DNA of 43,095 nt, from contig VHCI01000018.1 of assembly GCA_016871775.1 (NCBI GenBank), positions 1-43,095 on the forward strand, in the 5' to 3' direction. A model generated the notes under the pieces. The model had not been told where the DNA came from and ran no database searches. It saw only the letters and a list, made by a program, of their open reading frames with translations. The stretch comes from Verrucomicrobiota bacterium. GTDB taxonomy: Bacteria > Verrucomicrobiota > Verrucomicrobiia > Opitutales > Opitutaceae. Position numbers and translations under genes: made by a program. Below, in pieces: positions 4,504 through 39,313 of this stretch (position 1 is its first letter; the number at the start of each line of letters is the position of its first letter).

Positions 4504-6041
4504 GGGCTTCCCGCCGGGGCGCAGCCCTGCTGGCCACGCTCTTGGTCGTCGTCGGCGGGGCGATCGCCGAGGAGGCTCCGACGGTGGCGGAGATCTTCGG
4601 CCACCATATGGTGCTGCAGCGGGATCGGCCGGTCCCGGTCTGGGGCAACGCGCCCCCCGGCCTGCGCGTGAGCGTGGAATTTGCCGGACAGCAGCGCACC
4701 GGGCGCGCGGGAGCGGACGGACGCTGGCAGGTGGCGCTGGACGCGATGTCCGCGAGCGCGGCGTCCCGCGACCTCGTGATCCGCTTTGGCGATGGTGGCG
4801 GGGAGGCGCGCATCATCCGGGACGTGCTCGTGGGGGAAGTCTGGCTCTGCGGCGGGCAGTCGAACATGTTCTGGCCCCTGGGGCCGATCGCCAACCAACG
4901 CGGCCGCTGGCCCGGCGTGAAGGACGGCGAGGAGGAGGTGACGCGCGCCCGCTGGCCCGCGCTGCGCCTGAACTTCGATCCGGAGCACGAGCTGGGGCTC
5001 TCTGGCTGGCAGGTGTGTTCACCCGAAACGGTGCGCGGATTTTCCGCCACGGCGTACTTCTTCGGGCGCTCCCTGCACGAGACGTTGCGGGTGCCGATCG
5101 GCTTGGTGCTCCGCAGCCGGGGCGGGTCGAGCATCCAGGCCTGGACGCCTGGACCGGAGCTCGAGGCGCTGCCATTTGTGCAGGAGCAGCGGACCCGGCT
5201 GGAGCAAGGCCGCGAAGCCATCGTGGCGTGGAACCGTCGGATGGCGGAATTCCGCCAGGGCCGAGCCGCGGAGGAGACCGGGGCGCCGGCCCGGCCGGCA
5301 CCTTTACCCGATGAGCTCGAGACCGCCCGCAAGCTCCAGAGCCGGGGCGAACTCCACGAGCGGCTGGTCGCGCCCGTCGTGCCCTTCGCCCTGCGCGGCG
5401 CCATCTGGTACCAGGGTGAATCCAACACCAATCCCCGGGCCCTGGCTGCGGCTTATGGCGATATGCTCGGGGCGTTGATCGAGGGGTATCGCCGGCTCTG
5501 GCAAGATCCCACGCTGCCGTTCTACCTCGTGCAACTGCCGGTCTTCGAACGGCCGGCGGCGGGCGAGCACTGGCACATCGTGCGGGAAGGAATGCGCCGG
5601 CTGCATCAGCGCACGCCGCACACGGGCCTGGTGGTCACCTACGACTTCTCCGACCCGACGAACCTCCATCCGCCGGAAAAGCAGGAGGTCGGCCGGCGCC
5701 TCGCGCTCTGGGCCCTCGCGCATGCCTACGGCCGAGCGGTGCCTCATTCCGGGCCTCTCGTGCGGGAAGTCCGCTTCAGCGGGGCAAAGGCCGTCGTCTC
5801 GTTCCACCACGACGAGGGCCTGCGGTCGCTCGATGGTCACCCGCTGCGGGGTTTTGAGATCTCCGGGGCCGACGGCCGGTTCTTCCCGGCGGACGCCGAG
5901 CTCGCGGGCCAGGTCGTCCTCGTGAGCTCCGCGGCGGTGGCGGAACCCCGCCTGCTCCGCTTCTTCCACGGCGGATCGCGGATACCCAATCTGGGCAATG
6001 CGGCCCGCCTGCCTGCATCCCCCTTCACCACCGAACCCTAG
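4500..6041 (+). CDS. Sialate O-acetylesterase family protein (second of a tandem pair)
   Basis: Second predicted exported carbohydrate O-acetylesterase, also 513 residues. The chosen ATG overlaps the upstream stop (ATGA) and gives a clean signal peptide (MRASRRG, hydrophobic core, cleavage near AIA-EE at 23-25). This start also has a GGAGG seven nt upstream, one of the few Shine-Dalgarno-like sites in the window. Longer in-frame starts upstream would run inside the previous gene and are unlikely. Motifs are MVLQRD (37-42), GGQSNM with Ser121, WYQGESN, and NLHPPEKQEVG carrying the candidate catalytic His. Compared with its neighbour it has a different, Ala/Pro-rich insert before the QGESN block, so the pair looks like diverged duplicates that may remove acetyls from different positions or substrates. 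Confidence 0.92.
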   Translation: MRASRRGAALLATLLVVVGGAIAEEAPTVAEIFGHHMVLQRDRPVPVWGNAPPGLRVSVEFAGQQRTGRAGADGRWQVALDAMSASAASRDLVIRFGDGGGEARIIRDVLVGEVWLCGGQSNMFWPLGPIANQRGRWPGVKDGEEEVTRARWPALRLNFDPEHELGLSGWQVCSPETVRGFSATAYFFGRSLHETLRVPIGLVLRSRGGSSIQAWTPGPELEALPFVQEQRTRLEQGREAIVAWNRRMAEFRQGRAAEETGAPARPAPLPDELETARKLQSRGELHERLVAPVVPFALRGAIWYQGESNTNPRALAAAYGDMLGALIEGYRRLWQDPTLPFYLVQLPVFERPAAGEHWHIVREGMRRLHQRTPHTGLVVTYDFSDPTNLHPPEKQEVGRRLALWALAHAYGRAVPHSGPLVREVRFSGAKAVVSFHHDEGLRSLDGHPLRGFEISGADGRFFPADAELAGQVVLVSSAAVAEPRLLRFFHGGSRIPNLGNAARLPASPFTTEP

Positions 6042-16581: not shown

Positions 16582-17643
16582 TCAGGGTTGCGCCGCGCGC
16601 CGGGTCCAGACCTCCGGCGTGCGCACGCCGGGCCGGAGCTCGCCGCTGGGGATGACGTGACGGCCTTCCCATTCGACGACGGGCACCGTCACCGTGGGCC
16701 GCGGCATCCGGCCGGTGGAGCGCCAGGCGTCAGTCGCCGGGTCATAGGTCCACGTCGCGCCGGGAAAACCGGGGTGCGCCGACAGGGGCGTCACGGTCAG
16801 CCGGGAGGCGTCGTCGCCGCCCAGCACCACGAAGCCACGCGCGCCTTCGGGGGGCGCGGGGGTCGGGGCCGCGACGGCCGGCTGCGGCAGGTCCGCGATC
16901 CGGCGCCAGCCCCGGCCCGGATCATACCGGTAGGCGTCCCGGAGGTAGGTCCGCGCCGGCTTGCCCTGCGCGTCCGGCGCGAGGGCGGCGCCGCTCACGA
17001 GGAAAAAGGCGCCATCCGCGACCGCGGCGACGGCGAGCATCCGGCCCGGACCCGGCCAGGAGGGCAGTTCGCGCCAGCGTCGTTCCGTCGCGGCGAGGTC
17101 CAGCGCCCAGAAGGTCGTGAGCGCGGCGGTGGCGTCGGGGGTGGCGATGCCGCCGGCGAGGTAGAGGGTGGAACCGAGCCGTGCGCCGCAAAGGTTCGCC
17201 ACCGGGCGCGGCAGTGCCGGGAAGGGCCGCGTGGTGACCCGGCCTTCCTCCCAGCGGAGGAGGAACGCGTCGGCGTGGTGGCCCCCGGCGTCGCTGCCCC
17301 CGAGGCAGAGCACCCCGTCGGCGGTCGGGATCGAGACCCCGTATCCGAGGGGCCGCGGCAGGCGGCCGCCAATCTTCCACGCGCCGTCGGGCCGCTCGAG
17401 CACGAAGACCGTGTCGTACCAGACCTTCTCGCCCCCGTCCCACGGACGCTTGCCCGGGAAATTGGCGCCGCCGGCGACCAGCAGCGCGCCACCGTGCACG
17501 CCGGCGAAGGGATAGGCGAAGCCCTCCGGATCCGGGAGCGGGGCCAATCGCTCCCAGCGCACGGGCTCCGCGGCGGCCGCGGGGAGGGAACTCAGGGCGG
17601 CGACCATCAGGGCCAACCGCCAGGAACGGGAGTTCGTCCTCAT
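16582..17643 (-). CDS. Kelch-repeat sialic-acid mutarotase-like protein (cyclically permuted NanM type)
   Basis: Exported six-bladed Kelch propeller, 353 residues with a signal peptide (about 1-24). It resembles the family related to E. coli NanM (YjhT), which speeds anomer interconversion of free N-acetylneuraminic acid. The segments that lie in the C-terminal half of NanM (PFAGVHGG..VAGGANFPG, YGVSIP, GGSDAGG) are here near the N-terminus, and the NanM motif around GEAKPGLRT appears near the C-terminus as GELRPGVRTPEVW. This order is that of the known cyclically permuted mutarotase family. The match was made by recall of NanM, not by search. The start overlaps the upstream sulfatase stop (ATGA) and longer starts are rejected. 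A weak GGAAGG-like site is upstream of the ATG. Together with the GH33 sialidase it supports sialic acid as a product of this locus. Confidence 0.85.
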   Translation of the reverse strand: MRTNSRSWRLALMVAALSSLPAAAAEPVRWERLAPLPDPEGFAYPFAGVHGGALLVAGGANFPGKRPWDGGEKVWYDTVFVLERPDGAWKIGGRLPRPLGYGVSIPTADGVLCLGGSDAGGHHADAFLLRWEEGRVTTRPFPALPRPVANLCGARLGSTLYLAGGIATPDATAALTTFWALDLAATERRWRELPSWPGPGRMLAVAAVADGAFFLVSGAALAPDAQGKPARTYLRDAYRYDPGRGWRRIADLPQPAVAAPTPAPPEGARGFVVLGGDDASRLTVTPLSAHPGFPGATWTYDPATDAWRSTGRMPRPTVTVPVVEWEGRHVIPSGELRPGVRTPEVWTRRAAQP

Positions 17644-19115
17644 TGGCCGGCCTTCCGTTTCTTGCCCTTCGGCACGGGCTGGAACGACGGGTCGTAACCG
17701 GGGTTTGGCGCCATCATCTCGGCCCCCACGGCACGGCGCCACTCCTCCAGCTCGCGCCGCAACTCCGCGAGGCGGGCCGGTTCGGCGGCCGCAAGGTTGC
17801 GTGTCTCCCCGAGGTCGGCGGCCAGGTTGTACAATTCGAACCCCGCGGGGTCGAAGGTCTCGATCAGCTTCCACTCGCCGCGCCGGATGACCCCCGAGGG
17901 CACGCTGTGCGGGTGGTCATTATAGTGCGGGAAATGCCAGAAGAGCGACGAGCGCCCCAGCGCCTTCCCCTCCGCGAGGACCGGCCGCAGGTCGAGGCCG
18001 TCCACGTGCTGGTGCGGGCGCGGGGGCAGGCCGGCGGCGGCGAGGCAGGTCGGGTAAAGGTCGGTGCTGGTGACCGGCTCGGCGCTGACGGTGCCGGGGC
18101 GCGCGATGCCCGGCCATTTGATCAGCAGGGGCACGCGGATGCCGCCCTCGTAGTACGCCCCCTTGTTGGCCCGGAGCGGCGCGTTGCTGGTCGCGTTGTA
18201 GAAGCCGCCGTTGTCCGAGGTGAAGATGACGAGCGTGTCCCGCTCGAGCCCCAGCTCGCGCAGGGTGTCCATCACGCGGCCCACGCTGTCGTCGAGGCTC
18301 TCGACCATCGCGGCGTACACCGGCTTGCCCTGCCGCTCCGCCTCGGGGACGCGCTCGTACCTCGCGACCACCTCGGGCTTGGCCTGGAGCGGCGTGTGCA
18401 CCGCGTAGTGCGGCAGGTAGAGGAAGAAGGGGCGGTCACGGTTCTCGCGGATGAACGTCACGGCCTCGTCGGTGATCCGGTCGGTGAGGTACTCGCCGGG
18501 CTTGCCCTCGCGGAACACGTTCCACCGCGCGCGCTGGCCGGTGGTCGGGATCGCCCAGTTGCCCTCGTAGGGGAAGAAGAAGTCGCCCGGCGCGCCGTGC
18601 GCGTTGCCGCCGACGTTGAGGTCGAAGCCGTGGTGCTCGGGCAGCGAGAACGGTTCCCCGCCGAGGTGCCACTTGCCAATGCTGGCGGTCCGGTAACCCG
18701 CCTCGCGGAGCGCCTCGGCGAGGGTGATCTCCTCGAGCGGCAGGCTGCGCACGAAGCGCGCGCTCCGCAGGCGCGACCGCGGATCCCAGCGCCCGTTCGG
18801 CAGCCAGTCGGTCAGCAGCAGGCGGGCCGGGTACTTGCCGGTGAGCACCGCCGCCCGCGTCGGCGAGCACACCGCGCAGGCCGCGTAGGCGTCGGTGAAG
18901 CGCACCCCCTCGCGGGCGAGCCGGTCGATGTTGGGCGTGCGGTAGTAGGTGCTGCCGTTCGCGCCGATGTCGCGCCAGCCGAGGTCGTCGACCAGAATGA
19001 GCACGACATTCGCGCGGCCGGCGCGCGGGGACGCCTCGGCAGCGGGAAGCAGGGCCGGTGGTGCCGGCAAGAGCGCGGCCAGGAGGGGCGCGAGGGGGAA
19101 GCGGGGGACTTTCAT
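17640..19115 (-). CDS. Sulfatase, arylsulfatase A-like
   Basis: Exported type I sulfatase of 491 residues. The ATG at 19115 gives a signal peptide (MKVPRFPLAPLLAALL, cleavage near 26-30); 20 extra residues from a longer in-frame start are unlikely. Metal ligands Asp43/Asp44 (LVDDLGW), formylglycine site CSPTR at 83-87 followed by AAVLTGKYPAR, then GKWHLGG, FTSDNGGF and KGAYYEGGIRVPL, so every canonical segment is present. The C-terminus ends in a basic tail (PKGKKRKAGQ). The stop overlaps the start of the mutarotase-like gene by 4 nt. Which sulfated sugar it acts on cannot be told without subfamily placement. Confidence 0.94.
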   Translation of the reverse strand: MKVPRFPLAPLLAALLPAPPALLPAAEASPRAGRANVVLILVDDLGWRDIGANGSTYYRTPNIDRLAREGVRFTDAYAACAVCSPTRAAVLTGKYPARLLLTDWLPNGRWDPRSRLRSARFVRSLPLEEITLAEALREAGYRTASIGKWHLGGEPFSLPEHHGFDLNVGGNAHGAPGDFFFPYEGNWAIPTTGQRARWNVFREGKPGEYLTDRITDEAVTFIRENRDRPFFLYLPHYAVHTPLQAKPEVVARYERVPEAERQGKPVYAAMVESLDDSVGRVMDTLRELGLERDTLVIFTSDNGGFYNATSNAPLRANKGAYYEGGIRVPLLIKWPGIARPGTVSAEPVTSTDLYPTCLAAAGLPPRPHQHVDGLDLRPVLAEGKALGRSSLFWHFPHYNDHPHSVPSGVIRRGEWKLIETFDPAGFELYNLAADLGETRNLAAAEPARLAELRRELEEWRRAVGAEMMAPNPGYDPSFQPVPKGKKRKAGQ

Positions 19116-27462: not shown

Positions 27463-29079
27463 TTAGCCGAAGCTGCCGTCCAACGCAACCGGCCACGGCA
27501 GGACGCCCGTGCGGCGTGCCCACCCCTCGTAGGCGGCCACGAGCGCGGCAAGGCGCGCCGGCTCGCGCGCGGCGAGGTTGTCACCCTCGGCGCGGTCGCG
27601 GCTGACATCATAGAGCTCCCACGGGCCACCATCGGCCGCGACCAGCTTGTGGTCGCCGTCCCGGTAGGCGCGGTTGCCCATATGCTCCCAGCCGCAGGTG
27701 AAGGGCGCTCCCGCGGGCGGCGGGGTGCGCAGGTCCCTTCCGGGCAGGGCCTCGCCGGACGCGGGGGCAATCCCCGCCGCGGCGAGGCAGGTGGGGACGA
27801 CGTCGAGCACGGTGGCCGGGTCGCGCCGCCAATCGCCACCTGACACGAAGCCGGGGCCATTCGCCAGGAACGGGATCGCGATGCCTCCCTCGTGGGCGAA
27901 GCGTTTGTGGCGGCGGAAGGGCGTGTTGCTCACCTGCGCCCAGCCCGGCCCGTAACCGGTGTAGGAAAGCGGGCCCCCGAGCAGCGCCGGGTCGTACCGC
28001 TGCAGGGACGGATCCGTGACCGGCGGCAGGGAGGGGTCGCCGCCATTGTCGGAGACGAAAAGGATGAGCGCGTTGCCGCGGCGGCCGGCGCGCGCGAGGG
28101 CGTCCAGCACGCGGCCCACCTGATGGTCGAGGCGGTGGAGTTGCGCGGCGTAGACGGCCATATGGTGCGCGCGCTCCTCGGGGTCGGGGACGGCGGACCA
28201 GGCCGGAACGCCGGGATCGCGCGGCGCGAGCCCCCACGCGGGATCCACCAGCCCGAGGCGAACCTGGCGGCGATGGCGCTGCGCGCGCACCTCGTCCCAA
28301 CCGGCGCGGTAGCGGTTGCGGTAGAGGCCGATGTCCTCGGCGCGCGCGTGCAGGGGCCAGTGCGGGGCGGTGAAGGCGAGGTAGAGAAAGAGCGGGCGCG
28401 GGTCCGCGGCGCCGGCCTCGATCTGGCCGACGGCGGCGCGCGCGATCTCGTCAGTGAAGTAGAAGTCCCGGCCGGGATCCAGGCTGATCTCCCGGTCGTC
28501 GCGGAACAGGCGGCGCCGGCGGCTCTGGGCGCGGCTGCCCGAGGGGTCGAAGTAGCTGGCCGCGCCGCCGAGCAGGCCGAAGCTGGACTCGAACCCGCGG
28601 TCGCAGGGCCAGTGGGGGCGGTGCTCCCCCACGTGCCACTTCCCGGAGAGGCAGGTCCGGTAGCCGGCCGCGCGGAGGCGTTCCGCCAGGGTCGGCACCC
28701 CGGCGCGGAGGAACCCCTGGTAGGCGGGCGGGTTCGCGCGCGGCGGCTGCTCGTGCGTGACCATGAACCCGAGTCCGGCCTCGTGCGGGGTGCGGCCGGT
28801 GAGCAGCGCGGCGCGCGACGGGCAGCAGCGCGGAAAGGCGTAGCCCTGGGCGAAGCGGGCGCCGCCCGCGGCCAGCCGGTCGAGGTTCGGCGTGTGGATT
28901 TCCGAGCCGTGGCAGCCGAGATCGGCGAAACCGAGGTCATCGGCCGCGATCACCACCAGGTTGGGCCGTTCCGGAGCGGGGAGCGCGGGCAGGCGGGCCG
29001 TCGCCATCCACGCGGCGCCGGCGGAGGTGGTGCGGAGGAAACGGCGGCGCGGCAGGGGATGGGAAAACAGCGGGGTCAT
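27463..29079 (-). CDS. Tat-exported sulfatase (arylsulfatase)
   Basis: Type I sulfatase of 538 residues. Unlike its Sec-type neighbours it starts with a twin-arginine signal (PRRRFLRTT at 10-18), so it is probably exported folded, after formylglycine formation in the cytoplasm. Metal ligands Asp47/Asp48 (AADDLGF), formylglycine site CCPSR at 85-89 followed by AALLTGRTPHEAG, then SGKWHVGEH, APHWPLHA, FVSDNGGD and AHEGGIAIPFL. It is the longest sulfatase in the window and lacks the basic C-terminal tail. It begins 1 nt after the upstream sulfatase stop and ends 6 nt before the serine hydrolase. Substrate unknown; the overall pattern is that of broad arylsulfatases. Confidence 0.93.
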   Translation of the reverse strand: MTPLFSHPLPRRRFLRTTSAGAAWMATARLPALPAPERPNLVVIAADDLGFADLGCHGSEIHTPNLDRLAAGGARFAQGYAFPRCCPSRAALLTGRTPHEAGLGFMVTHEQPPRANPPAYQGFLRAGVPTLAERLRAAGYRTCLSGKWHVGEHRPHWPCDRGFESSFGLLGGAASYFDPSGSRAQSRRRRLFRDDREISLDPGRDFYFTDEIARAAVGQIEAGAADPRPLFLYLAFTAPHWPLHARAEDIGLYRNRYRAGWDEVRAQRHRRQVRLGLVDPAWGLAPRDPGVPAWSAVPDPEERAHHMAVYAAQLHRLDHQVGRVLDALARAGRRGNALILFVSDNGGDPSLPPVTDPSLQRYDPALLGGPLSYTGYGPGWAQVSNTPFRRHKRFAHEGGIAIPFLANGPGFVSGGDWRRDPATVLDVVPTCLAAAGIAPASGEALPGRDLRTPPPAGAPFTCGWEHMGNRAYRDGDHKLVAADGGPWELYDVSRDRAEGDNLAAREPARLAALVAAYEGWARRTGVLPWPVALDGSFG

Positions 29080-29080
29080 C

Positions 29081-30565
29081 TCAGCGGGCGAGGCGGATCG
29101 GATTGTTGGGCAACCAGTGCTTCGGGGATGGGAAACGGTGCCCGCCCCGCCCCCCGGGGCCCTCCTGCTCCTGCTGCGCGAGCCAGCCCCGCATCCGTCC
29201 GAGGAGATCCCCGCGCAGCGCGGCGGCGGCGGGCTCGGCCCAGAGGTTGCGCGTCTCCGCCGGGTCCGCGGCGAGGTCGTACAGTTCCCCCTCGTCCGCG
29301 GCCGACGGCGGGCCGTCGTGGTAGACGGTGAGCTTGTGCGGCCCGCGCACGATCATCGTGCAGTGGATCGGCGGGTCCCAGAACACCTTCCGCCGGTTGA
29401 TGCAGCTGTTGCGATAGACGCCGAACGCGCAGTCGCGGCCCGGGCCGGAGCCCTGCAGCGGCAAGGCGTCGGGCAGCTCCGCCCGCCGCGTCGCGGGGTC
29501 CGCCCCGGCCGCCGCGAGCGCGGTGGCGGCGAGGTCGTGCAACTGCACCAGCGCGGGGGAGCGCGCCCCGGCGGCGATGCCCCCCGGCCAGCGCGCGAGC
29601 AGCGGCACGCGGGCGCAGGCTTCATAGAAGTGGGCACCCTTCCCGAGCAGCCGGCGTTCGCCGAGCATCTCGCCGTGGTCGCTGGCGAAGAGCACCAGCG
29701 TGTCCCCCGCCACGCCCGCCGCCGCCAGCGCGTCGAGCACCCGGCCGACGCACGCGTCGAGGAACCCCACCGAGGCGTGGTAGCTGCGCCGCATCCGCCG
29801 GATCTCGTCGTCGGTGTAGTCACCGAGCGCGCCGAGCACGCCCTCCGCCTCCTCGCGCCGCACCCCGGCGGGACGGTCCGGCGGGCCGGCCCGGCGGTCG
29901 ACGGTCTCCATCGCCCCGAGGCGCACGCGGTCGAGCCACTCGGGCGGGTGGTCATCGAACGGGTCGTGCGGGTCGACGAAGCTGGCGCAGCAGAAGAAGG
30001 GACCCCGGGCCGCCTCCGCGCGGATGAAGGCGCCGGCCCGCTCGGCCACCCAGGTCGAGAAGTGCAGCGCGTCCGGGATGTGCCCCACCGCGCTGCCCTC
30101 CCGCGCGAGGCGCGCGAGGAAGGCGGGATCGCGCTCCCGCAGCCAGTCGCGGTAGGCGTGGAAGCGGCAGTCGTGGTTGTAGGGGGAGAGCGCGTTCTCG
30201 TAGACGTCGAAACCGGCGTGGGCCGGGACCTCATTCTGGTCGACCACCCGGGCGCTCACGTGGAGTTTTCCGAACAACGCCGTCCGGTAGCCGAGCCCGC
30301 GCAGCGTCTCCGGGAACAGCCGCTCGGTGGCCGGGAGCACGTCGTGCAGGTTGTGGACCCCGTGGCCGTGCACGGTCTTCCCGGTCCAGAGGCAGGCCCG
30401 GCTCGGGGTGCAGACGGGGTTGTTGACGTAGCAGCGGTCGAACACCGTGCCCCCGGCGGCGAGGGCATCGAGGTGCGGCGTGGGCACGCGCGTGCCGCCG
30501 TAGCAGCCGAGGGCGTCGGCGCGCAGCTGGTCGCTGAGGAGGAGCAGGATGTTCGGGCGGGGCAT
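29081..30565 (-). CDS. Sulfatase without a signal peptide, possibly cytoplasmic
   Basis: Type I sulfatase of 494 residues whose first residues (MPRPNILLLLSDQLRAD) are already the start of the catalytic domain, so no Sec or Tat signal exists. The ATG shares a base with the stop of the upstream symporter (TGATG). Metal ligands lie in SDQLR, the formylglycine site is CTPSR at 52-56 followed by ACLWTGKT, and GKLHVSAR, SFVDPHDPF, ASDHGEMLGE and FYEACARVPLL complete the active site. Of the eight sulfatases only this one lacks an export signal. Its direct coupling to a transporter gene suggests that it desulfates an imported mono- or oligosaccharide inside the cell; this is inference. It has no basic tail. 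Confidence 0.92.
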   Translation of the reverse strand: MPRPNILLLLSDQLRADALGCYGGTRVPTPHLDALAAGGTVFDRCYVNNPVCTPSRACLWTGKTVHGHGVHNLHDVLPATERLFPETLRGLGYRTALFGKLHVSARVVDQNEVPAHAGFDVYENALSPYNHDCRFHAYRDWLRERDPAFLARLAREGSAVGHIPDALHFSTWVAERAGAFIRAEAARGPFFCCASFVDPHDPFDDHPPEWLDRVRLGAMETVDRRAGPPDRPAGVRREEAEGVLGALGDYTDDEIRRMRRSYHASVGFLDACVGRVLDALAAAGVAGDTLVLFASDHGEMLGERRLLGKGAHFYEACARVPLLARWPGGIAAGARSPALVQLHDLAATALAAAGADPATRRAELPDALPLQGSGPGRDCAFGVYRNSCINRRKVFWDPPIHCTMIVRGPHKLTVYHDGPPSAADEGELYDLAADPAETRNLWAEPAAAALRGDLLGRMRGWLAQQEQEGPGGRGGHRFPSPKHWLPNNPIRLAR

Positions 30566-32931
30566 CAGGCGGGGCCCGCGGGTCCGCGGGGCGGCAGGGT
30601 CCAGAGCGTGAGGCCCGTGAGCGGGCGGCGGGCGCCCCCCGCCGCGGCAACGGCGAGCGCCACGGCGGCGCAGGTCGCGAAGCCGACCAGGCCGTACCAG
30701 AAGAAATGCAGCCGCGTCGCCTGCTGCACCCAGAGGAGCACGGCGCCGCTCGCGACCACCCCGGCGAGGGCCCCCGCGGCGTTCGCCCGCGTCGTGAAGA
30801 TCCCCAGCGCGAAGACCGCCGCCAGGCCGGTGCCCATCAGCCCGACCAGGGAGATGTAGGCGTCGAGGAACGACCGGATGTCGAGGGTGGTGAGCAGCAG
30901 CGCCAGGCCCGTGGTCGCGACGCCGAGACCCGCCGTGGCGCCCCGCGCCCAGCGCAGGCGCGCGCGCGCCGACAGGCCGGGCCGGCCGCGTTCCACGAAG
31001 TCCGTGACCAGCGCCGTGGCCCCGCTGTTGAGGTCACTGGAGACGTTGGACTGCGCCGCCGCGAAGATGCCGGCCACCACGAGGCCGGCCAGCCCCGCCG
31101 GGAGGTGGTCGGCGACGAAGAACGGCAGCAGCGACTCGCCGGCGATCGCCGGGTGCAGGGCCTCCGGGTGGTGCTTGAAGAACAGGTAAAGACCCGTCCC
31201 GAGGGCGAAGTAGAGCGTGGCCGAGGGGAAGGCAATCAGCCCGTTCAGCCAGATCGCGCGCCGCGCCTGCGCCTCGTCGGTGGTCGTGAGGTAGCGCTGG
31301 ATCACGGACTGGTCCGAGGTGTAGGGCACCAGGTTGTTGATGAGGTTGCCGAGCACGATGATCCAGGTCGTCGCCTGGACCGCGCTCCACGACCAGTCGA
31401 CGAGCCGCAGCTTGCCGTCGGCGGCAGCCTCGGCCGCGAGCGCCGCGACGCCGCCCCCCGCGCCGCCCAGGAGCGCGCCGAGGCAGAGCAGCGCGGCGCT
31501 CAGCATCACCCCCGCCTGCAGCACGCTGGTCCAGATCGAGCCCTCGATCCCGCCGAGCACGGTGTAGACCGTGCAGAGCCCGCCGATCAGGAGCACACAG
31601 GCGACCACGTCGAGGCCGCACACCGTGGCCAGGGCGAGCGAGGGCAGGTACGTGACGATCGCGACGCGGCCGAGCTGGAAACACACGAACACCACGCTGG
31701 CGTAGGCCCGCAGCGCGAAGCTGAAGCGCCGCTCCAGGTACTCGTAGGCGCTGGCGACCTCAAGCCGGCGGAAGAACGGCAGGTAGAAGCGCGTGATGAC
31801 CGGCGCGAGCAGCAGGATGGTCAGCGGCGCCAGCAGGAAGGTCCAGTCGGTGGCAAAGGACTTCGCGGGCATCGCCAGCACCGTGATCGAGCTCAGGGTG
31901 GTCGCGTAGACGCTGATGCCTGCCGCCCACCACGGGATGCGGCCACCCGCGAGGAAATAGCTGCGGGCATCGCGCGCCCGCCGCATGAAGTAGGCGCCCA
32001 GGCCCATCATCGCCACCAGGTACGCGCCCAGCGTCGCGTAGTTGATGGCGCCGAACTCCGGCCGGCGCGGCGCCAGCGCGAGCGCGCCCGCGGTGCGGGC
32101 ATCCGCCGGTCCCGCGATCACCGCCAGACCGGCCCCCGCCGCCGGCCCCGCCGGCACCACTCCCTCGCCCGGAGACGGCGCCGCCCAGGCCCGCGTGACC
32201 GGATGCCAGAGCCACAGCGGCCCGGGCTCGCCGGGAACCGCGAACCCGAGATGCGCCGCGCCCACCCGCGCCGCCACGAGCGCCACCGGCGTCGGGCCCG
32301 CGCCGGGCCCGGCGTGTTCCCGCCAACCGGCCCCCGCGCGCTGCCACAGCGACCAACCCGACGCGGTGCCCACCGCCAGCACCAATCCCTCGCGCCCCGC
32401 CACGAGCGCGAGCGGCCGCGCGCCGGCGGGCACGGCAGGCCGTGGTTCCTCCGCCCAGCCCGCGCCGGCACGGCGCCAAATCCGGAGGGCACCTTCGTGG
32501 AGCGCGGCCGCAAACCATTCCCCGGCGGCGCCCGCCGCGACGACGGGGGCCCGCGCCCCGGAGACCGGCACCGGTGCACCGGGCCCCGCCGTCGCGTGCA
32601 AAGCGCTCCAGACCCCCGCGGCGTCGGACTCGGCGAGCAGGAAACCCCCGGCCAGCGGCAGCACGGCGGGAAGGCCGGCCGGGCCGCTCCGCACTTCCCG
32701 CGCCGGCCCGCCAGGAGGGGAAACGCGGGCGCTCCAGCCCTCCGGGGTGGCCACCAGTTCAAGGCGCTCGCCCCTCCCGTCCAACGCGAGACGGGGGCCA
32801 CCGGACCAGGGAGCGCCGGCCACGGAGAAGGCCGGCGGACTCGCCGCAGCCGGGATGAGGCCAAGGCCCAGGGAAAAGAGCGCGGCCCGCAGGGGACCGC
32901 GCCGCCGGGACGCGGGGGCGGACGCCGCCAC
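30565..32931 (-). CDS. Sodium:solute symporter with N-terminal beta-propeller domain
   Basis: Inner-membrane SSS-family transporter, 788 residues, in two parts. Residues 1-31 are a signal peptide or anchor. Residues about 32-290 form an exported propeller-like domain with a repeating W..AGAGW unit (Trp152-Trp159, Trp196-Trp203, then Trp242-Trp249), a blade period of 44-46 residues. From about 298 on come 13-14 membrane segments with SSS motifs (YFLAGGRIPWW, YATTLSSITVLAMPAKS, GGIEGSIWTSVLQ, SDQSVIQRYLTT, AQSNVSSDLNSGAT). SSS transporters import sugars, sialic acids and other solutes with sodium. Fusions of SSS with NanM-like propellers are known, but this propeller shows no clear Kelch motifs. 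The start is a GTG that directly follows the TonB receptor stop (TGAGTG). Confidence 0.9.
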   Translation of the reverse strand: MAASAPASRRRGPLRAALFSLGLGLIPAAASPPAFSVAGAPWSGGPRLALDGRGERLELVATPEGWSARVSPPGGPAREVRSGPAGLPAVLPLAGGFLLAESDAAGVWSALHATAGPGAPVPVSGARAPVVAAGAAGEWFAAALHEGALRIWRRAGAGWAEEPRPAVPAGARPLALVAGREGLVLAVGTASGWSLWQRAGAGWREHAGPGAGPTPVALVAARVGAAHLGFAVPGEPGPLWLWHPVTRAWAAPSPGEGVVPAGPAAGAGLAVIAGPADARTAGALALAPRRPEFGAINYATLGAYLVAMMGLGAYFMRRARDARSYFLAGGRIPWWAAGISVYATTLSSITVLAMPAKSFATDWTFLLAPLTILLLAPVITRFYLPFFRRLEVASAYEYLERRFSFALRAYASVVFVCFQLGRVAIVTYLPSLALATVCGLDVVACVLLIGGLCTVYTVLGGIEGSIWTSVLQAGVMLSAALLCLGALLGGAGGGVAALAAEAAADGKLRLVDWSWSAVQATTWIIVLGNLINNLVPYTSDQSVIQRYLTTTDEAQARRAIWLNGLIAFPSATLYFALGTGLYLFFKHHPEALHPAIAGESLLPFFVADHLPAGLAGLVVAGIFAAAQSNVSSDLNSGATALVTDFVERGRPGLSARARLRWARGATAGLGVATTGLALLLTTLDIRSFLDAYISLVGLMGTGLAAVFALGIFTTRANAAGALAGVVASGAVLLWVQQATRLHFFWYGLVGFATCAAVALAVAAAGGARRPLTGLTLWTLPPRGPAGPA

Positions 32932-35085
32932 TCAGAACCTCCAGGAGAGCGACATCTGCATCGTCGGGGGCACGCTCGGGTCGATGTTGTTCGCACCGGT
33001 CGAGCCGATGTTGTACAGCTCATCCGTCAGGTTGCGCGCGGAGACCGCGGCGGACCAGCGGGCCCCGGCGTAGCCCACCGTGGCGTCGAGCGTCGTGTAG
33101 CCCGGCGCATCGACCCCGGTCGAGTAGTACAGGGTCCCGCGGTGGAAGGCGCCCGCGCCGAAGTACAATCCCTTGAGCGCACCCCGGCCGACCGAGTACT
33201 TCGCCCAGAGGCTGGAGGCCTGGCGGAACGACTGGTTGACCCGGGTGCCGCCCGGACCCTCGACCTGCGCCGTGAAGATCGTGCCGATCAGCTGCAGCCC
33301 GCGCACGGGCTCGTACCACAGCTCGAGCTCGGCCCCCCGGTTCGCGGTGTCCGTCACGACGAACGCGTTGACGGTGGAGTTGAAGGTCGCGAAGCCCTTC
33401 AGGTCGAGCTGGTACAGGGTCACGCCGCCCCAGAGGCGGTCCTCGAGCAGGTTGAACTTCAGGCCCGCCTCGCGGGAACGGCCGGTCACCGGGGGCGGCC
33501 GCAGGCCGGCGGGCGTGGAGGCGTTCGCCTGGTTGGGCGAGAAGGTGGTCCCCGTCTGGACGAACAGCTTCACCCGCGGGGTGAAGCTCCAGACCGCCGC
33601 GATCGAGTGCACCAGGTCGTCGGAGGAGTCCGTGCGGCGCGCCTCGCGCTGGGTCGCGTCGGGCAGGTCGTGGACGCTCGATTTTTCCGCCGCGTAGCTG
33701 CCGCCGAGCGTTACGGCGAGCCGGCGTGGCACCACGTCGAACGACTGGGTGGCGTAGACGGTGGTGCCGGTGACGACCGTGCGGGTGTCATTGAAGCGGC
33801 CGAGGATGATCCGGTCGGGCGCCCCGGGGAGGCGGACATTGGCGAGGTTGGGCGTGACGATGTTGAGCTGCCCCTGCGCGGCCGTGGCGACGGTGGCCCG
33901 GCTGTAGGCGCCGATCGCGCGGCCGGTGGCGAGGTCCACCTCCTGGCGGTCCTGGTTGAGGATCTCCCGGTTGCGGGACCAGCCGAGGTTGGTGAGCACC
34001 TTCACGCCGCCGAGGGTGTAGGCGCCGGCGATGTCCTGCTGCAGCGAGCCGAAGCGGCGCAGCTCGGTCTGCCCGAAGTAGCGCTGGGGGGAGAGCAGCG
34101 TGACGAGGTTGGCGGCGCCCTGGCGGCGGTGCTCCTCATCGTCCCGCTCGGTCCGCTCGGCCATATAGGCGACGCGGGACTCCCAGTCGCCGAGGCGCTG
34201 GATCCAGGTGAAGACCTGCTGGCCGGTCTCCTTGCGGGTGAAGGACCACGGGGCCTTGTAGTCGGTGCGGCGGCCGCCGCCGAGGTAGACGGTGCCGTCG
34301 GGCCGCGCGATGCCGCCCGGGAACTCGCCGGCGGTGAAGGTCTCGGACCAGATGTACTGGAAACGCACCGTCGTGCCGCCGCGCGCGTACTGGAACATCG
34401 GCGCGAGCGCCTCCTGATTTTGGCGGCCGCGGTACCCCGGGTCGTCCTGCTTCGCGGCGACGACGCGGTAGGCGAAGGCGGAGGCGGCGCCGGGCAGCGC
34501 GGACGTCGAGTCGAGCTCGGCACGGCGGAAGTCATAGCTCCCGAACTGGGCGCGCAGGGTGTGGCGCGGCGCGTTCTGGGGCTTCTTGGTGATGCGGTTG
34601 ACGAGCCCGCCCGCCGGCACGCGTGAACCGTAGAGGACCGAGTTCACGCCCTTGAGGACCTCGATGCTGTCGAGCACCGACAACTCGTTGGGCGAGTTGC
34701 TCACGCGGATGCCATCCTGCCAGGGCGACTCGAACCGCTGACCCCGGAGCTGCAGGAAGTTATTGCGGTTGGTCGAGGGCGGCGCGCCCGCGACGGCGTA
34801 CTTGAGGATGTCCCCGATGGTCTGCCGCGAGATCATATCGTCGATGAAGTCGCGGGTGACGAGGGCGACGCTGGCGGGCAGGTCGATGAGGGGGCGAGCG
34901 CTCTTGGTGCCGGAGGCCGTGTTGGTGGAGCGGTAGCCGAGGCCGGCGGTGCTCCGGACCTCGAAGGCGGACAGCTGGACGGTCTCCGCCGGCGGCGGGG
35001 CGGCGGGCGGCGGGGTCGCGGCCGGCAGGGCGGCCAGCGCGAGGACGAGGGCGGGCGGGACGAGGCGGGCGGGGTTACGGGTCAT
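32932..35085 (-). CDS. TonB-dependent receptor, siderophore-receptor type, first gene of the cluster
   Basis: Outer-membrane receptor of 717 residues. Signal peptide about 1-23 followed by a Pro-rich linker. The TonB box VQLSAFEV is at 36-43, the same position as in the receptor at 12695-15052. The plug shows IDLPASVALVTRDFIDDM (67-84), LQLRGQRF and VLKGVNSVLYG (143-153), then LVNRITKKP. The barrel ends SLSWRF. It heads the minus-strand cluster and faces a GntR/LacI-type regulator across 78 bp. It is adjacent to the symporter gene with no gap, so outer-membrane and inner-membrane uptake of the same compound is a reasonable inference. The siderophore label comes only from the plug family. Confidence 0.94.
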   Translation of the reverse strand: MTRNPARLVPPALVLALAALPAATPPPAAPPPAETVQLSAFEVRSTAGLGYRSTNTASGTKSARPLIDLPASVALVTRDFIDDMISRQTIGDILKYAVAGAPPSTNRNNFLQLRGQRFESPWQDGIRVSNSPNELSVLDSIEVLKGVNSVLYGSRVPAGGLVNRITKKPQNAPRHTLRAQFGSYDFRRAELDSTSALPGAASAFAYRVVAAKQDDPGYRGRQNQEALAPMFQYARGGTTVRFQYIWSETFTAGEFPGGIARPDGTVYLGGGRRTDYKAPWSFTRKETGQQVFTWIQRLGDWESRVAYMAERTERDDEEHRRQGAANLVTLLSPQRYFGQTELRRFGSLQQDIAGAYTLGGVKVLTNLGWSRNREILNQDRQEVDLATGRAIGAYSRATVATAAQGQLNIVTPNLANVRLPGAPDRIILGRFNDTRTVVTGTTVYATQSFDVVPRRLAVTLGGSYAAEKSSVHDLPDATQREARRTDSSDDLVHSIAAVWSFTPRVKLFVQTGTTFSPNQANASTPAGLRPPPVTGRSREAGLKFNLLEDRLWGGVTLYQLDLKGFATFNSTVNAFVVTDTANRGAELELWYEPVRGLQLIGTIFTAQVEGPGGTRVNQSFRQASSLWAKYSVGRGALKGLYFGAGAFHRGTLYYSTGVDAPGYTTLDATVGYAGARWSAAVSARNLTDELYNIGSTGANNIDPSVPPTMQMSLSWRF

Positions 35086-35163
35086 ATCCGGGGGAGGGGC
35101 GGACGCGGGGCGGCCACGGGGTTAGGGCTTGCGGGGCGGGTGACGGTGGCGCAGAGCCGGGAA
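35086..35163. promoter_or_regulatory. Divergent intergenic region between the 16-gene cluster and its likely regulator
   Basis: These 78 bp separate two divergent starts and must hold, or adjoin, both promoters. The region itself is almost all G/C and shows no clear -35/-10 pair. The nearest AT-rich patch is just to the right (35161-35200), inside the regulator if the ATG at 35164 is used, or in its leader if the GTG at 35221 is the true start. Confidence 0.4.
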
Positions 35164-36315
35164 ATGCCTCAAAGCGAATCCACCGGCCCAAAGATTGTAC
35201 CGGGGCCGGGGGGGCCGCTGGTGCCGGTGCGCCAGAGCCTGCCGGCGCTGGCGGCGGCGAGCCTGCGGGAGCAGATCCGGCAGGGAAGGTGGCGCGACTG
35301 GCTGCCGGGCGAGCGGCGGCTGAGCGGGGAGTTGCGGGTGAGCCGCGGCACGGTGCGCGCGGCGCTCGGGATCCTCGCGCGGGAGCAGGTGGTGCGGGGC
35401 GTCTCGAGCCGGGGCCACCGGGTGCTGCCGCGGCGCGCGCGCGGCACTGGGGCCGCGCGCGCGACCGTGATCGGCCTGCTCTCGCCGGAGCCGCTGGAAA
35501 CGCGGCGCCCGTACTTCGCCCTGCTTGTGGCGCACCTGCGGGAGGCGGCCGCGGCGCGCGGCTGGAGCCTCCAGCGCCACGCGGGCGCGAGCTACTTCGG
35601 CCCGCAGGCGGAGGCCCACCTCACGCGCCTGACCGCGCAGGCAGGCTGCCGCGCCTGGGTCCTGTTCCAGTCCACGCTGGAGGTCCAGGCCTGGTTCGGC
35701 ACGCGGGGGCTGCCGGCCATATTGTCGGGCCACCCCTACCCCGGGGTCCGCCTGCCGTCGCTCGACGTCGACCAGCGCGCCGCCGGCCGCCACGCGGGGC
35801 TGCTGCTCGCGCGGCGCGGGCACCGCCACGTGGCACTGCTCGCCTCCCGGAAACGGCTGCCGGGGCTGGTCGAGGGGGAGGCGGGCTTCGAGGTGGGATT
35901 CCGCGCTGGGGCCGGCGAGGCGGGGAGGCTGGCGCGAGTGCCGTGCGACGCCGATCCCGCCGCCCTCGCCGCCGCCGTCCACCGCTGCCTCGCCGGCCGG
36001 CCCCGGCCCACCGCCGTGGTGGTCGAGACCCCCAACCAGTACCTCACCGTCTTCAGCGTCGCCGCCGCCTTGGGGCTCGCGGTCCCGCGCGACCTTTCCC
36101 TGCTGAGCCGGCTGGACGACCCGTTCCTCGCGCACGTCCGCCCGGAACCGGCCCGATATCGCGCCGACCCGGCGGCCACCGCGAAGGCGATGATGACCGT
36201 GCTCGCCCGCCTCGCGACCGGCGAGCCCGTCCCGAGCGGCGGGCGGAAGATGGTGCCAGAGTTCCTGCCCGGCGGTTCCCTCGCCGCCCCGCCGCCCGCA
36301 AAAGCTCAGCGGTAG
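35164..36315 (+). CDS. GntR-type HTH / LacI-type sensor transcriptional regulator
   Basis: Cytoplasmic regulator, 383 residues from the ATG at 35164. A winged-helix GntR domain lies near residues 30-90 (LREQIRQGRW, WLPGERRLSGEL, VSRGTVRAAL). A LacI/periplasmic-binding-protein-like sensor domain fills the rest (VIGLLSPEP, RLPSLDVDQRAAGRHA, RRGHRHVALL, PTAVVVETPNQY). A GTG at 35140 is also possible. A GTG at 35221 would match the N-terminus of the paralogue at 41212-42297 better, and the codons between (CAA, ATT, GTA) are rare elsewhere in this gene, so the true start may be 35221. It probably responds to a sugar and controls the divergent cluster. Its 3' end overlaps the convergent sulfatase by 10 bp. 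Confidence 0.88.
   Translation: MPQSESTGPKIVPGPGGPLVPVRQSLPALAAASLREQIRQGRWRDWLPGERRLSGELRVSRGTVRAALGILAREQVVRGVSSRGHRVLPRRARGTGAARATVIGLLSPEPLETRRPYFALLVAHLREAAAARGWSLQRHAGASYFGPQAEAHLTRLTAQAGCRAWVLFQSTLEVQAWFGTRGLPAILSGHPYPGVRLPSLDVDQRAAGRHAGLLLARRGHRHVALLASRKRLPGLVEGEAGFEVGFRAGAGEAGRLARVPCDADPAALAAAVHRCLAGRPRPTAVVVETPNQYLTVFSVAAALGLAVPRDLSLLSRLDDPFLAHVRPEPARYRADPAATAKAMMTVLARLATGEPVPSGGRKMVPEFLPGGSLAAPPPAKAQR
35170..35198 (+). promoter_or_regulatory. AT-rich direct repeat, candidate operator
   Basis: Two similar decamers, CAAAGCGAAT (35170-35179) and CAAAGATTGT (35189-35198), start 19 bp apart in the most AT-rich patch of the region. They would suit a dimeric regulator binding two turns of DNA. 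If the regulator starts at 35164 they are inside its coding sequence; if it starts at 35221 they lie in the shared control region. Confidence 0.25.
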
Positions 36316-37751
36316 TCGGCCCCCTTCGCCGAGGCCTCGCACCTGCGCCGCCAAGCCTCCAGCGCGGACCGCAGCGCGCGCGCGAGCTCCGGCTCGGCCG
36401 CAGCCAGGTCCCGTTCCTCCCGCGGGTCCGCCGCGAGGTCGTGCAGGGTCCACGTCGCGCCGGAGTCGACGGTGATCAGTTTGCGGCGGTCCGTCTGCAC
36501 CGCCGCCTGGAACGTTCCCGGCTTGGCCCAGGGGTCGCCATCGTTGCGCAGGGGCGCGTGGAAGAAGACCGGTTCGCCCCGCTCCGCCCGCTCACCCGCG
36601 AGCAGCGCGCGCACGTCGCGGCCATCGAGCGGGGGCTGCTTTTCCGGGCGCACGCCGGCGAGGGCAAGGAGGGTCGGGTAAAGGTCCGACGTGACCAGCG
36701 GGGCGGTGACGACCCGGCCGCCGGGGAAACCGCGGGGCCATTCGACGATGCCGGGCACGCGGACGCCGCCCTCGAGCAGGCTGCCCTTAAGCCCGCGGAA
36801 CGGACCGGCGCTGCCGTGCGGATGAATGTAGCTCGGGCCGTTGTCGCTGCAGTAAACCACCACGGTGTCTTCCGCCCGGCCCAGCCGGCGCAGCTCGGCG
36901 CGCAGGCGCCCGACCTGCGCGTCGAGCGCGGCAAGGGAGCCGAGGAAGTGCTGCTGGGCCAAAGGCAGATTGGCGTACGGCTGCCGGTCCGCGCGGCCCG
37001 CGGCCACGGGCGTGTGCGGCGCGTGGAACCACACGCAGGCGAGGAAGGGCTGGTCGCTCGCGGCGCGGATGAACTCCAGCGTGCGTTCCGTGATCAGCGC
37101 GGAATCGTCGCCGGGCAGGTCCTCGTCGACGAACCGGCCCGGGCCGGTCCAGTAGCTCTCGTTCCACCGGTGCTCCCGGCCGACGTCCTCGGCGTCGCGA
37201 CCGAGGATGGGTTCCACCTTCTGGGAAGTGTCGGTGTAATAGTAGGGATTGAAGGTCGGGACGCTCGCCTCCGTCGAGAAGCAGGTCTCGAACCCATTCG
37301 CCCAAGGCGGGGAATACCGCGCCGGGTCGACCTTGTTCTTGCGGCCCTGGCGGAGGGTGCGGCTGAGCTGGCCCAGGTGCCATTTGCCGAAGTGGCCGGT
37401 GCGGTAGCCGGCGGCGCGGAGGGCCTCCGCGAGCGTGACCTCCGCCGCGGGCAGCTGGCCGTCGAAGGCCCAGTCGATGCCGTAACGGCTCGGGTGCCGC
37501 CCGGTGAGCACGGAGCCGCGCGTGGGCGAGCAGACGGGGGCGGCGGCGTAGAAGCGGTCGAGTCGGACGCCCGCGCGGGCCATCGCATCGAGGTGCGGCG
37601 TGCGCAGCCGCGGGTGGCCGTTGTAGCCAACGTCGCCCCAGCCCTGGTCGTCGGCCATCAGCAGGACGAAGCTTGGGCGGGCGGCAAGGGGTGCGGAGCC
37701 GAGGAGACACAGGAGGGCGAAACGGGCGAGCCGGCGGGGGACGAGTTCCAT
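36306..37751 (-). CDS. Sulfatase, arylsulfatase-like
   Basis: Exported type I sulfatase, 481 residues from the ATG at 37751, with a signal peptide about 1-24 (FALLCLLGSAPLAA; no good lipobox at the Cys). Metal ligands Asp34/Asp35 (MADDQGWGDVGYNGH), formylglycine site CSPTR at 74-78 followed by GSVLTGRHPSRYG, then FGKWHLGQ, WFHAPHTPV, YCSDNGPSY and KGSLLEGGVRVPGIV. All active-site segments are present and there is no basic tail. It is divergent from a second sulfatase across 131 bp and converges on the regulator with a 10-bp overlap of coding ends. It lies outside the main minus-strand cluster. The pattern is like enzymes removing sulfate from sulfated polysaccharides; exact substrate unknown. 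Confidence 0.94.
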   Translation of the reverse strand: MELVPRRLARFALLCLLGSAPLAARPSFVLLMADDQGWGDVGYNGHPRLRTPHLDAMARAGVRLDRFYAAAPVCSPTRGSVLTGRHPSRYGIDWAFDGQLPAAEVTLAEALRAAGYRTGHFGKWHLGQLSRTLRQGRKNKVDPARYSPPWANGFETCFSTEASVPTFNPYYYTDTSQKVEPILGRDAEDVGREHRWNESYWTGPGRFVDEDLPGDDSALITERTLEFIRAASDQPFLACVWFHAPHTPVAAGRADRQPYANLPLAQQHFLGSLAALDAQVGRLRAELRRLGRAEDTVVVYCSDNGPSYIHPHGSAGPFRGLKGSLLEGGVRVPGIVEWPRGFPGGRVVTAPLVTSDLYPTLLALAGVRPEKQPPLDGRDVRALLAGERAERGEPVFFHAPLRNDGDPWAKPGTFQAAVQTDRRKLITVDSGATWTLHDLAADPREERDLAAAEPELARALRSALEAWRRRCEASAKGADYR

Positions 37752-37882
37752 CGGGGATGGGGGTTGCCGGAAGCCTGCGCCTGCGCGGGGCCGGGGCAAC
37801 GGGCGCCCGCCGGTTTGGAAAGAGGACCACCGAACGACGCTTCCCCGCCCGACGGGCGCAAGCCAGCTTCCCACCCGCCCCC
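37752..37882. promoter_or_regulatory. 131-bp divergent spacer between two sulfatase genes
   Basis: Largest gap in the window. It must carry promoters for two divergent sulfatases. The least GC-rich part is around 37815-37835 (GGTTTGGAAAGAGG), but no convincing promoter boxes or perfect palindrome were found. Confidence 0.35.
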
Positions 37883-39313
37883 ATGCGCGCCCCGCCCCGC
37901 CTGCTCGCCCTCGTCTCCCTCATCGCCGCGGCATCCCTCGCGACCGCCGCCCCGGCCCCGGCCCCGGGATTCATCATCATTCTCGCCGACGATCTCGGCT
38001 GGGGCGACCTCGGGTGCCAAGGCAACCCCCACGTCCAGACCCCGCATCTTGACGCCCTCGCGCGGGAGGGCGTGCGCTTCATCCAGGCCTACGCGCCCTC
38101 GCCCGTCTGCTCGGCCTCGCGCGCCGCGCTCCTCACCGGACAATGGCCCGCGCGGCTCGGGATCACGGACGCGATCGGCGACGCCGGGGACCGTTGGAAC
38201 CGCGGCCGCCGCCTCCGCACCCCGCCCAACCCGGGCGCGCTGGACCTGGCGACCGTCACGCTCGCGGAGGCCCTCCGCGCCGCCGGCTTCGCCACCGCCA
38301 GCATCGGCAAATGGCACCTCGGAGGGAAGGGCTCGCTCGCGGAGGACCACGGTTTCGAGGTGAATTATTACGGCAACAACCTGGGGAGCCCGAAGACGAT
38401 GTTCGGGCCCGACCACGGCCTTGGCCTCGCGCCCACGCCCCCCGGGGAATACCTCACCGACCGGCTCCAGGACGAGGCGGAGCGCTGGCTCGCCGCGCAG
38501 GGGGAGCGCCCGTTCCTCCTTCTCTTGGGCCATTTTGCCGTGCACCGCCCGCTCGGGGCGAAGGAGGAGACGATCCGCCGCCAGCCGGCGCGCGGACCCG
38601 CGCCGTGGGGCCTGCTCCCGGAGTACGCCGCGATGATCGAGGACCTCGACGCGACCGTGGGCCGGCTGCGCGCCTTCCTTGCCGCCCGCGGGCTCGACCG
38701 CCGGACCACCGTCGTCTTCACCTCCGACAACGGGGCGGTGAAATGGTGGGGCTCCAACGGCGGGCTGCGCGAAACGAAGGGCACCCTCTACGAGGGTGGC
38801 ATCCGGGTGCCCCTGATCGTTTGGCAGCCCGGTGGCGCCAGCCGAGGTCGCGTCCTGGACGTGCCGGTGCACGGCATCGACCTTTTCCCCACCCTGCTCG
38901 ATCTCGCGGGCGCCGGGCCCGGCCCCGCGGTAGACGGCCGGAGCCTCGCGGCGCTGTTGCGCGGCGGGCGCGGGCCGGCCGCGGACCGCCCGCTCTTCTG
39001 GCACTTCCCACACTACAATATGCACGGCGCGCGGCCCTCCGGCGCAGTTCGGGCCGGGGACCTCAAGCTGCTCGAGTTCCTCGAGGACGGCCGCCGCGAG
39101 CTTTACGACCTGCAGGCGGATCCCGGCGAGACCACCGACCTCGCGACGCGCCGGCCCGCCGATGTGCGGCGCCTCGCCGACCTGCTCGCCGCGCACCGGC
39201 GCGAGGTCGGCGCGCGGATGCCGGAGCCGAACCCGGCCTTCGACGGCACCGAGCCGGAGGTGGTGCCGCTGCGCCCGTTCGAGTCCACCCGCACCGTGCC
39301 GGGCGGCCGCTGA
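37883..39313 (+). CDS. Sulfatase with CSASR-type site
   Basis: Exported type I sulfatase of 476 residues; the ATG at 37883 gives a signal peptide about 1-23. Metal ligands Asp36/Asp37 (ADDLGWGDLGC). The formylglycine site is CSASR at 76-80, followed by AALLTGQWPARLG; Ala in place of Pro is the accepted minor form of the motif. SIGKWHLGG, HFAVHRPLG, FTSDNGAVKWWG and KGTLYEGGIRVPLIV follow. Overall it resembles the sulfatase at 17640-19115 (both carry a LFWHFPHYN segment and an R..P.PNPAFD/GYD end). No basic tail. It is followed 25 nt later by a DMT permease on the same strand. Confidence 0.94.
   Translation: MRAPPRLLALVSLIAAASLATAAPAPAPGFIIILADDLGWGDLGCQGNPHVQTPHLDALAREGVRFIQAYAPSPVCSASRAALLTGQWPARLGITDAIGDAGDRWNRGRRLRTPPNPGALDLATVTLAEALRAAGFATASIGKWHLGGKGSLAEDHGFEVNYYGNNLGSPKTMFGPDHGLGLAPTPPGEYLTDRLQDEAERWLAAQGERPFLLLLGHFAVHRPLGAKEETIRRQPARGPAPWGLLPEYAAMIEDLDATVGRLRAFLAARGLDRRTTVVFTSDNGAVKWWGSNGGLRETKGTLYEGGIRVPLIVWQPGGASRGRVLDVPVHGIDLFPTLLDLAGAGPGPAVDGRSLAALLRGGRGPAADRPLFWHFPHYNMHGARPSGAVRAGDLKLLEFLEDGRRELYDLQADPGETTDLATRRPADVRRLADLLAAHRREVGARMPEPNPAFDGTEPEVVPLRPFESTRTVPGGR

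Follow-up and report, generated by a model that had tools for sequence, protein, structure and literature searches.

A Verrucomicrobiota SSS symporter with an N-terminal propeller that is probably a compacted descendant of a fused NanM mutarotase

We analyzed a 43,095-nucleotide stretch of DNA from a Verrucomicrobiota bacterium of the family Opitutaceae (GenBank assembly GCA_016871775.1, contig VHCI01000018.1), hereafter called the window. It is contig 18 of a draft genome that comprises 3.78 Mb in 274 contigs and is about 96% complete. On the minus strand, within a run of genes for a TonB-dependent receptor and sulfatases, an open reading frame with a GTG start (positions 30565-32931) encodes a protein of 788 residues. 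This protein is an SSS symporter that carries a putative signal peptide and an N-terminal domain of ~260 residues (N-domain). An initial annotation, made from the sequence alone, described the N-domain as an exported propeller of a non-Kelch type that differs from known symporter fusions and could capture sugars or sort anomers. We instead favor, with a probability of roughly three in four (0.74), the view that it descends from a NanM-type mutarotase fused to a symporter of the SiaT branch and that it has been compacted and has probably lost catalysis. The coordinates of all features discussed are given in Table 1.

The symporter portion is readily assigned. The PF00474 (SSF) model matches residues 325-726 (E = 3.6e-30), and the TIGR00813 score of 188.1 bits lies above the curated cut-off of 184 that defines SSS membership. 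The putative signal peptide was read by eye as an RRR stretch followed by a hydrophobic run and AAA. The N-domain matches no Pfam or NCBIfam model at E values up to 10, including PF24996 and TIGR03547/TIGR03548, and a sequence search of the PDB with this domain yielded no match. It contains three pairs of tryptophans (152/159, 196/203, and 242/249) spaced 44 and 46 residues apart, exactly as had been annotated. When residues 31-292 were shuffled, a triplet of W-x6-W pairs with spacings of 43-47 residues arose in 6 of 200,000 trials; with the spacing left free, at least three such pairs arose in 1,892 of 200,000. The annotated repeat unit, Trp-(x)2-AGAG-Trp, is borne out for the tryptophans of all three copies and for the AGAG portion of two (GAGW159 and GAGW203); the third copy reads TRAW249. 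All three pairs are also retained in a full-length ortholog (L038), at positions 141/150 (two residues longer), 187/194, and 233/240.

An AlphaFold model of the N-domain, built from two sequences, has a mean predicted local distance difference test score (pLDDT) of 51 and a predicted template modeling score of 0.53, with block means of 74-85 at model residues 111-180. The model is made of runs of four strands, and every Trp pair falls on strands three and four of a run. Judging by their titles, the 50 Foldseek hits printed for this model are mostly propellers, and the sole match among them at E ≤ 0.001 is a chain of a microtubule complex. A second structural comparison gave Z scores of up to 12.2 (for a propeller), with Kelch domains at about 11 and tied with WD40 domains. 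Overall, the best matches are mostly propellers, and Kelch domains are numerous among them. These comparisons support a propeller and leave its class undecided. A prediction of the full protein from four sequences was unusable (mean pLDDT of 37). Thus, the annotated joining of a repeat-built, exported domain to a transporter is supported, and structure prediction, which had been proposed as a check, returned four-stranded blades for the isolated domain; the number of blades, probably six, comes from the weak N-domain model.

The best whole-protein relatives in the family form a series in which the N-domain is intact, long, short, very short, or absent (class labels assigned by length and appearance). 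Intact fusions, whose proteins mostly have 850-950 residues, carry 365-435 residues ahead of the first transmembrane segment (TM1) in complete frames. Long-class proteins have 308-375 such residues (532 in one case) and no clear Kelch repeats, whereas this region shrinks to 187-229 residues, signal peptide included, in complete frames of the short class (proteins of about 700 residues) and to 145-164 residues in the very short class. All five of the 22 intact fusions that were scanned with Pfam and NCBIfam match PF24996 (NANM), TIGR03548, and PRK14131; the 14 intact-fusion loci were scanned with a home-made profile built partly from these proteins. Four of the 22 intact proteins (L012, L021, L034, and L106) and two of the four members of the window clade (L039 and L040) are incomplete at the 5′ end, and the set of relatives excludes L007. 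Two domainless symporters of the same clade (L014 and L020, with N-terminal stretches of 69 and 43 residues) begin with a signal-peptide-like sequence, a possible scar of domain deletion. Elsewhere, two symporters with eroded long-class domains (L081 and L093, on contig 189 of genome G032) are encoded on one strand, about 2 kb from each other.

Intact fusions are widespread in the phylum: a match to one of them at E ≤ 1e-130 occurs in 24 of the 288 genomes sampled, including the source genome, and 23 of the 26 matches at this threshold extend into both domains. For the window-type domain, a search of 252 genomes of the family returned, besides the window itself, one full-length ortholog (genome G062) and two that are cut at contig ends (G174 and G207). 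The remaining matches were local, with E values of 0.002-0.1. The named orthologs all come from Opitutaceae or Opitutia metagenome-assembled genomes.

In a tree of 43 SSS sequences, the window clade falls within a group made up of intact fusions and domainless symporters (support 98/91), and its closest neighbor is an intact fusion (L011). A quick tree of 68 sequences, from which the 43 were drawn, gives the same placement (SH-aLRT support of 95); it omits eight of 76 rows because they were duplicates (L009, L010, L103, and L107), partial (L012, L034, and L106), or in the wrong frame (L008). The symporter domain is nested among fusions with an intact NanM domain. Furthermore, when 14 chosen sequences were aligned, W159, W203, and W249 coincided with the conserved tryptophans of three successive Kelch blades, and W249 matched the Trp of the motif YHTITDTW. 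Short-class proteins retain a remnant of the last blades, with a YHTITDTW-like motif, ahead of TM1. Profile comparison links residues 159-252 of the window domain to this class (~200 residues; E = 5e-6, probability 86), compared to a best E value of 0.036 among 20 column shuffles, and links the short class to the intact class (E = 1.5e-15). Single-sequence phmmer searches agree (L037, 1.9e-5; L036, 3.6e-5). These results connect residues 159-252, by way of the short class, to the NanM-type domains, and we infer that the whole domain shares this descent. The labels "non-Kelch" and "different from known fusions" are therefore probably wrong.

Several known systems help to place this protein. NanM/YjhT (PF24996, TIGR03547/TIGR03548, PDB 2uvk) resembles the window domain in its probable six-bladed Kelch layout and in the positions of its blade tryptophans. 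Fused relatives from the same phylum match NanM, whereas the window domain matches no NanM model, is shorter, and has fewer Gly-Gly doublets. The NanM-SSS fusions of the phylum share the domain order of the window protein and have a close SSS domain, but their Kelch domain is intact. The short-domain proteins, which come from the same family of genomes, form a separate SSS clade and have about 190-230 residues ahead of TM1. We found no description of, and no established name for, NanM-SSS or Kelch-SSS fusions in a literature search of titles and abstract openings, a scope that excludes most subscription journals.

A hallmark of intact domains has disappeared from the window clade. Residues Glu209 and Arg215 of NanM, whose roles were reportedly described by Severi and colleagues in 2008, sit in the motif G-E-x2-P-x2-R-[ST] (positions from the 2uvk alignment). 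This pattern is found in 21 of the 22 intact fusions, and the remaining one (L105) also has the Glu and the Arg. It is absent from all proteins of the window clade (0/4) and of the long (0/7), short (0/24), and very short (0/3) classes. Arg279 of the window protein may be the former motif Arg, with some uncertainty in gap placement, and both Arg279 and Thr280 are conserved in all four clade members. Gly-Gly doublets number three in the window domain vs 9-13 in four intact domains. The missing Glu speaks against mutarotase activity of the window domain.

Despite this loss, the domain, judging by its substitution pattern, is still under selective constraint. In a comparison with L038 (NG86), the ratio of nonsynonymous to synonymous substitution rates (dN/dS) is 0.22 for the N-domain, with values of 0.13-0.32 in slices of 44 codons, and 0.085 for the symporter portion. 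The divergence of the N-domain relative to that of the symporter is 3.7 for this pair. This value falls at the border between the listed intact pairs (1.7-2.8 for the 14 listed of 28) and the listed short pairs (3.7-11 for the 14 listed of 61).

The nearest solved structure of the symporter is SiaT from Proteus mirabilis (5nv9; E = 5e-106), whose solved chain (496 residues) has no N-terminal domain, unlike the window protein. The SiaT report (PMC5931594) includes Thr58, Ser60, Thr63, Phe78, Gln82, and Arg135 among the residues that bind N-acetylneuraminic acid and states that Asp182Ala and Ser343Ala abolish uptake. All of these binding residues are conserved in the window clade except Gln82, which is replaced by Pro; in this comparison, TM6 positions derive from an uncertain alignment. 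Asp182 is conserved in all 61 other relatives (outgroup excluded) and is Ser in all four window-clade proteins. Of the Na2 Ser-Ser pair, Ser342 is kept and Ser343 is replaced by Asn, which could still coordinate Na+. These changes lead us to predict an altered cation coupling of the window-clade symporter. Arg135 occurs in 64 of 65 relatives, again without the outgroup, and consequently is not diagnostic of sialic acid.

Several observations weigh against descent by compaction. Compared directly by profile, the window domain shows no significant similarity to the intact NanM domains (E = 0.074, against 0.098 for the best of 20 shuffles), to the long class (0.055, against 0.097 for the best of 20 shuffles), or to the very short class (0.19). 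The significant link passes through the short class, which the SSS tree places in a separate clade. The approximately unbiased test rejects (P = 0.001) a tree in which the window clade groups with the short, long, and very short classes, a grouping named after the tree had been seen; the likeness to the short class would then reflect a common core that was trimmed in parallel. The branch leading to the window clade is long (about 1.0), and dS in the dN/dS comparison is high (1.0 for the N-domain and 0.66 for the symporter portion). The tie between Kelch and WD40 matches comes from a model that is weak because only two full-length domain sequences are present among the genomes searched. Residues 31-150 have no demonstrated NanM kin, and their position and predicted fold are what suggest descent from NanM. 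Moreover, residues 54-184 weakly match a repeat protein from genome G578 (L148; E = 4e-5, pairwise 4e-6), which, apart from the window itself, was the only N-domain match to reach E ≤ 1e-4 in an order-wide sample of 273 genomes. By eye, the L148 repeats are BNR/Ycf48-like, another propeller type, and home-made profiles detect neither SSS nor NanM in it. This match points mildly to a different origin of residues 31-150, and because of it our confidence shifted slightly from compaction toward domain replacement.

Under domain replacement, all or the first half of the NanM domain would have been lost, and another propeller with 44-46-residue repeats joined later. The lack of database matches for the N-domain fits such a history, and loss would be easy given that domainless symporters are present in the same clade. 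We consider replacement unlikely, however, since the blade tryptophans remain in register with intact domains up to TM1, the profile link of residues 159-252 is significant, and relatives with domains of intermediate length exist. Kelch homology, which the annotation had named as evidence against its own view, is found only indirectly, through the tree, the Trp register, and the short class, and not through a direct match to a Kelch or NanM model. The domain might alternatively still convert anomers, with another substrate and a moved active site, and feed the correct anomer to the transporter. Its constraint, the conserved Arg279 and Thr280, and the resemblance of intact relatives to a mutarotase fused to a transporter are compatible with this idea. 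Nevertheless, the motif Glu is gone, the loops are trimmed, and a separate NanM with the motif is encoded in the same window, making continued catalysis quite improbable. Finally, both domains could be losing function in a dying gene, as might be suggested by fast evolution along the long branch and by the substitutions at two positions where Ala replacements cost SiaT its uptake. This explanation is very hard to sustain, as the symporter portion has dN/dS values of 0.074-0.13 among orthologs, the frames of the four members (two cut at contig ends) contain no internal stops, and the gene order with sulfatases is conserved in three of four.

Compaction of a fused NanM domain is thus the reading that we prefer. 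Its starting point would have been a SiaT-branch SSS symporter to which a mutarotase domain of the NanM type (Kelch, PF24996) was fused. In the window lineage, this domain would have been compacted from about 340-360 residues (the tightest complete frames of relatives minus the signal peptide) to about 260, shedding its long loops, most of the Kelch Gly-Gly doublets, and the Glu that belongs to the Glu...Arg motif. The core of the blades, with the tryptophan pairs on their last two strands, would have been kept. The domain is presumably folded and periplasmic, would no longer mutarotate, and may persist as a cap, an assembly module, or a weak binding module. The transporter would take up a sugar freed by the products of the neighboring TonB-receptor/sulfatase/BNR-hydrolase locus, and any mutarotation would now be left to the separate NanM.

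Table 1. Features of the symporter gene, its neighbors, and a weakly matching repeat protein
Feature	Position	Strand	Basis
Putative signal peptide, about residues 1-30	32842..32931	-	Sequence, cleavage judged by eye
N-terminal propeller domain, residues 31-292, probably divergent compacted NanM/Kelch type, probably six blades	32056..32841	-	Profile comparison, model, tree, alignment
Trp152-Trp159 unit, model strands three and four of one blade; W159 on Kelch-blade Trp	32455..32478	-	Model, alignment
Trp196-Trp203 unit, next blade; W203 on Kelch-blade Trp	32323..32346	-	Model, alignment
Trp242-Trp249 unit, counterpart of YHTITDTW of relatives	32185..32208	-	Model, alignment
Residues 274-280 (GPADART), site of NanM motif in intact fusions; Glu absent	32092..32112	-	Alignment
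SSS (SLC5-type) symporter domain, residues about 295-770, nearest solved structure SiaT (5nv9)	30622..32049	-	PF00474, TIGR00813
Arg422 = SiaT Arg135 (carboxylate salt bridge), kept	31666..31668	-	Alignment to SiaT
Ser469 = SiaT Asp182 (Na3 site), changed in 4/4 window-clade proteins	31525..31527	-	Alignment to SiaT
Asn629 = SiaT Ser343 (Na2 site), changed in 4/4 window-clade proteins	31045..31047	-	Alignment to SiaT
TonB-dependent receptor directly upstream of symporter gene	32932..35085	-	Frame list, profile scans
Sulfatase, start overlapping last base of symporter gene	29081..30565	-	Frame list, Pfam
Second sulfatase of run, one base after first	27463..29079	-	Frame list, Pfam
Separate NanM-type Kelch protein, 430 residues, Glu...Arg motif kept, between two sulfatase genes	16582..17874	-	
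Secreted-looking repeat protein L148, 610 residues, cut at contig end	L148 1-1830	-	Weak match to window residues 54-184

The GTG start of the symporter gene immediately follows the stop codon of the TonB-receptor gene. The order of symporter and sulfatase genes is retained in L039 and L040. The symporter of genome G062 has no adjoining sulfatases, and its neighbors include a myo-inositol oxygenase and a receptor remnant. In this locus (L038/L108; about positions 7400-7760 of L108, minus strand), the 3′ end of a TonB-receptor gene reads in frame, with no stop codon, into the symporter gene. This fragment is apparently what remains of a receptor, and the sequence upstream of it yielded no receptor plug.

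Across the whole window, seven or more sulfatases are encoded, along with an enzyme that activates sulfatases, two proteins resembling BNR hydrolases, two SASA esterases, four TonB receptors, and an apiosidase-like protein. As listed, the two SASA-family frames (2962-4503 and 4359-6041, plus strand) overlap by 145 bases. A further sulfatase-like frame on the plus strand (37508-39310), which only a home-made profile detected, overlaps a listed minus-strand sulfatase (36306-37874). A frame of 443 residues (35122-36453, minus strand) has no Pfam or NCBIfam match and may not be a gene. Among the 14 intact-fusion loci, seven have a BNR hydrolase and seven a sulfatase within about 10 kb. Two other loci (L130 and L131) have separate genes for a BNR-family protein, a symporter like that of the window, and NanM next to each other, an arrangement consistent with a functional connection between NanM-type proteins and such transporters.

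The BNR and SASA genes of the window give hints at the family level only, BNR_2 having 18 match rows in the genome. Uptake of sialic acid by the symporter is a less attractive proposal given that NanE was not found in the source genome at its about 96% completeness, that its two matches to the NanA model are both below the cut-off, and that Arg135 is not diagnostic. The sugar therefore probably lies outside the classical sialic acid route.

It is possible that the fused domain was made redundant by the separate NanM, whose gene lies about 13 kb from the symporter gene. All four window-clade genomes (G000, G062, G174, and G207) have a NanM hit. However, this idea is weakened because NanM hits are lacking in 16 of the 24 genomes that encode a short-domain protein and because separate NanM genes also occur near intact fusions and domainless symporters. 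With up to 20 kb considered per locus, a nearby NanM was found at 2 of 14 intact, 4 of 10 domainless, and 1 of 4 window-clade loci.

The fused domain looks like it has been worn away in several related bacterial lineages, with the window as one case. Within one transporter family, on separate branches, relatives span the range from an intact mutarotase-type domain through trimmed forms and remnants to none. This series allows one to ask how a fused enzyme benefits a transporter and what stays useful after catalysis is lost. One answer, which we regard as speculative and unlikely, is that the window domain has become a non-catalytic propeller lid, still under selection, which would bind or gate substrate, coupled with a changed use of cations (Na3 Asp lost, Na2 Ser replaced by Asn). 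If true, this would represent the conversion of an enzyme to a receptor on a secondary transporter. The case also cautions that a repeat domain that seems "new" and draws no database hits may be an old one that is worn, recognizable through its neighboring domain.

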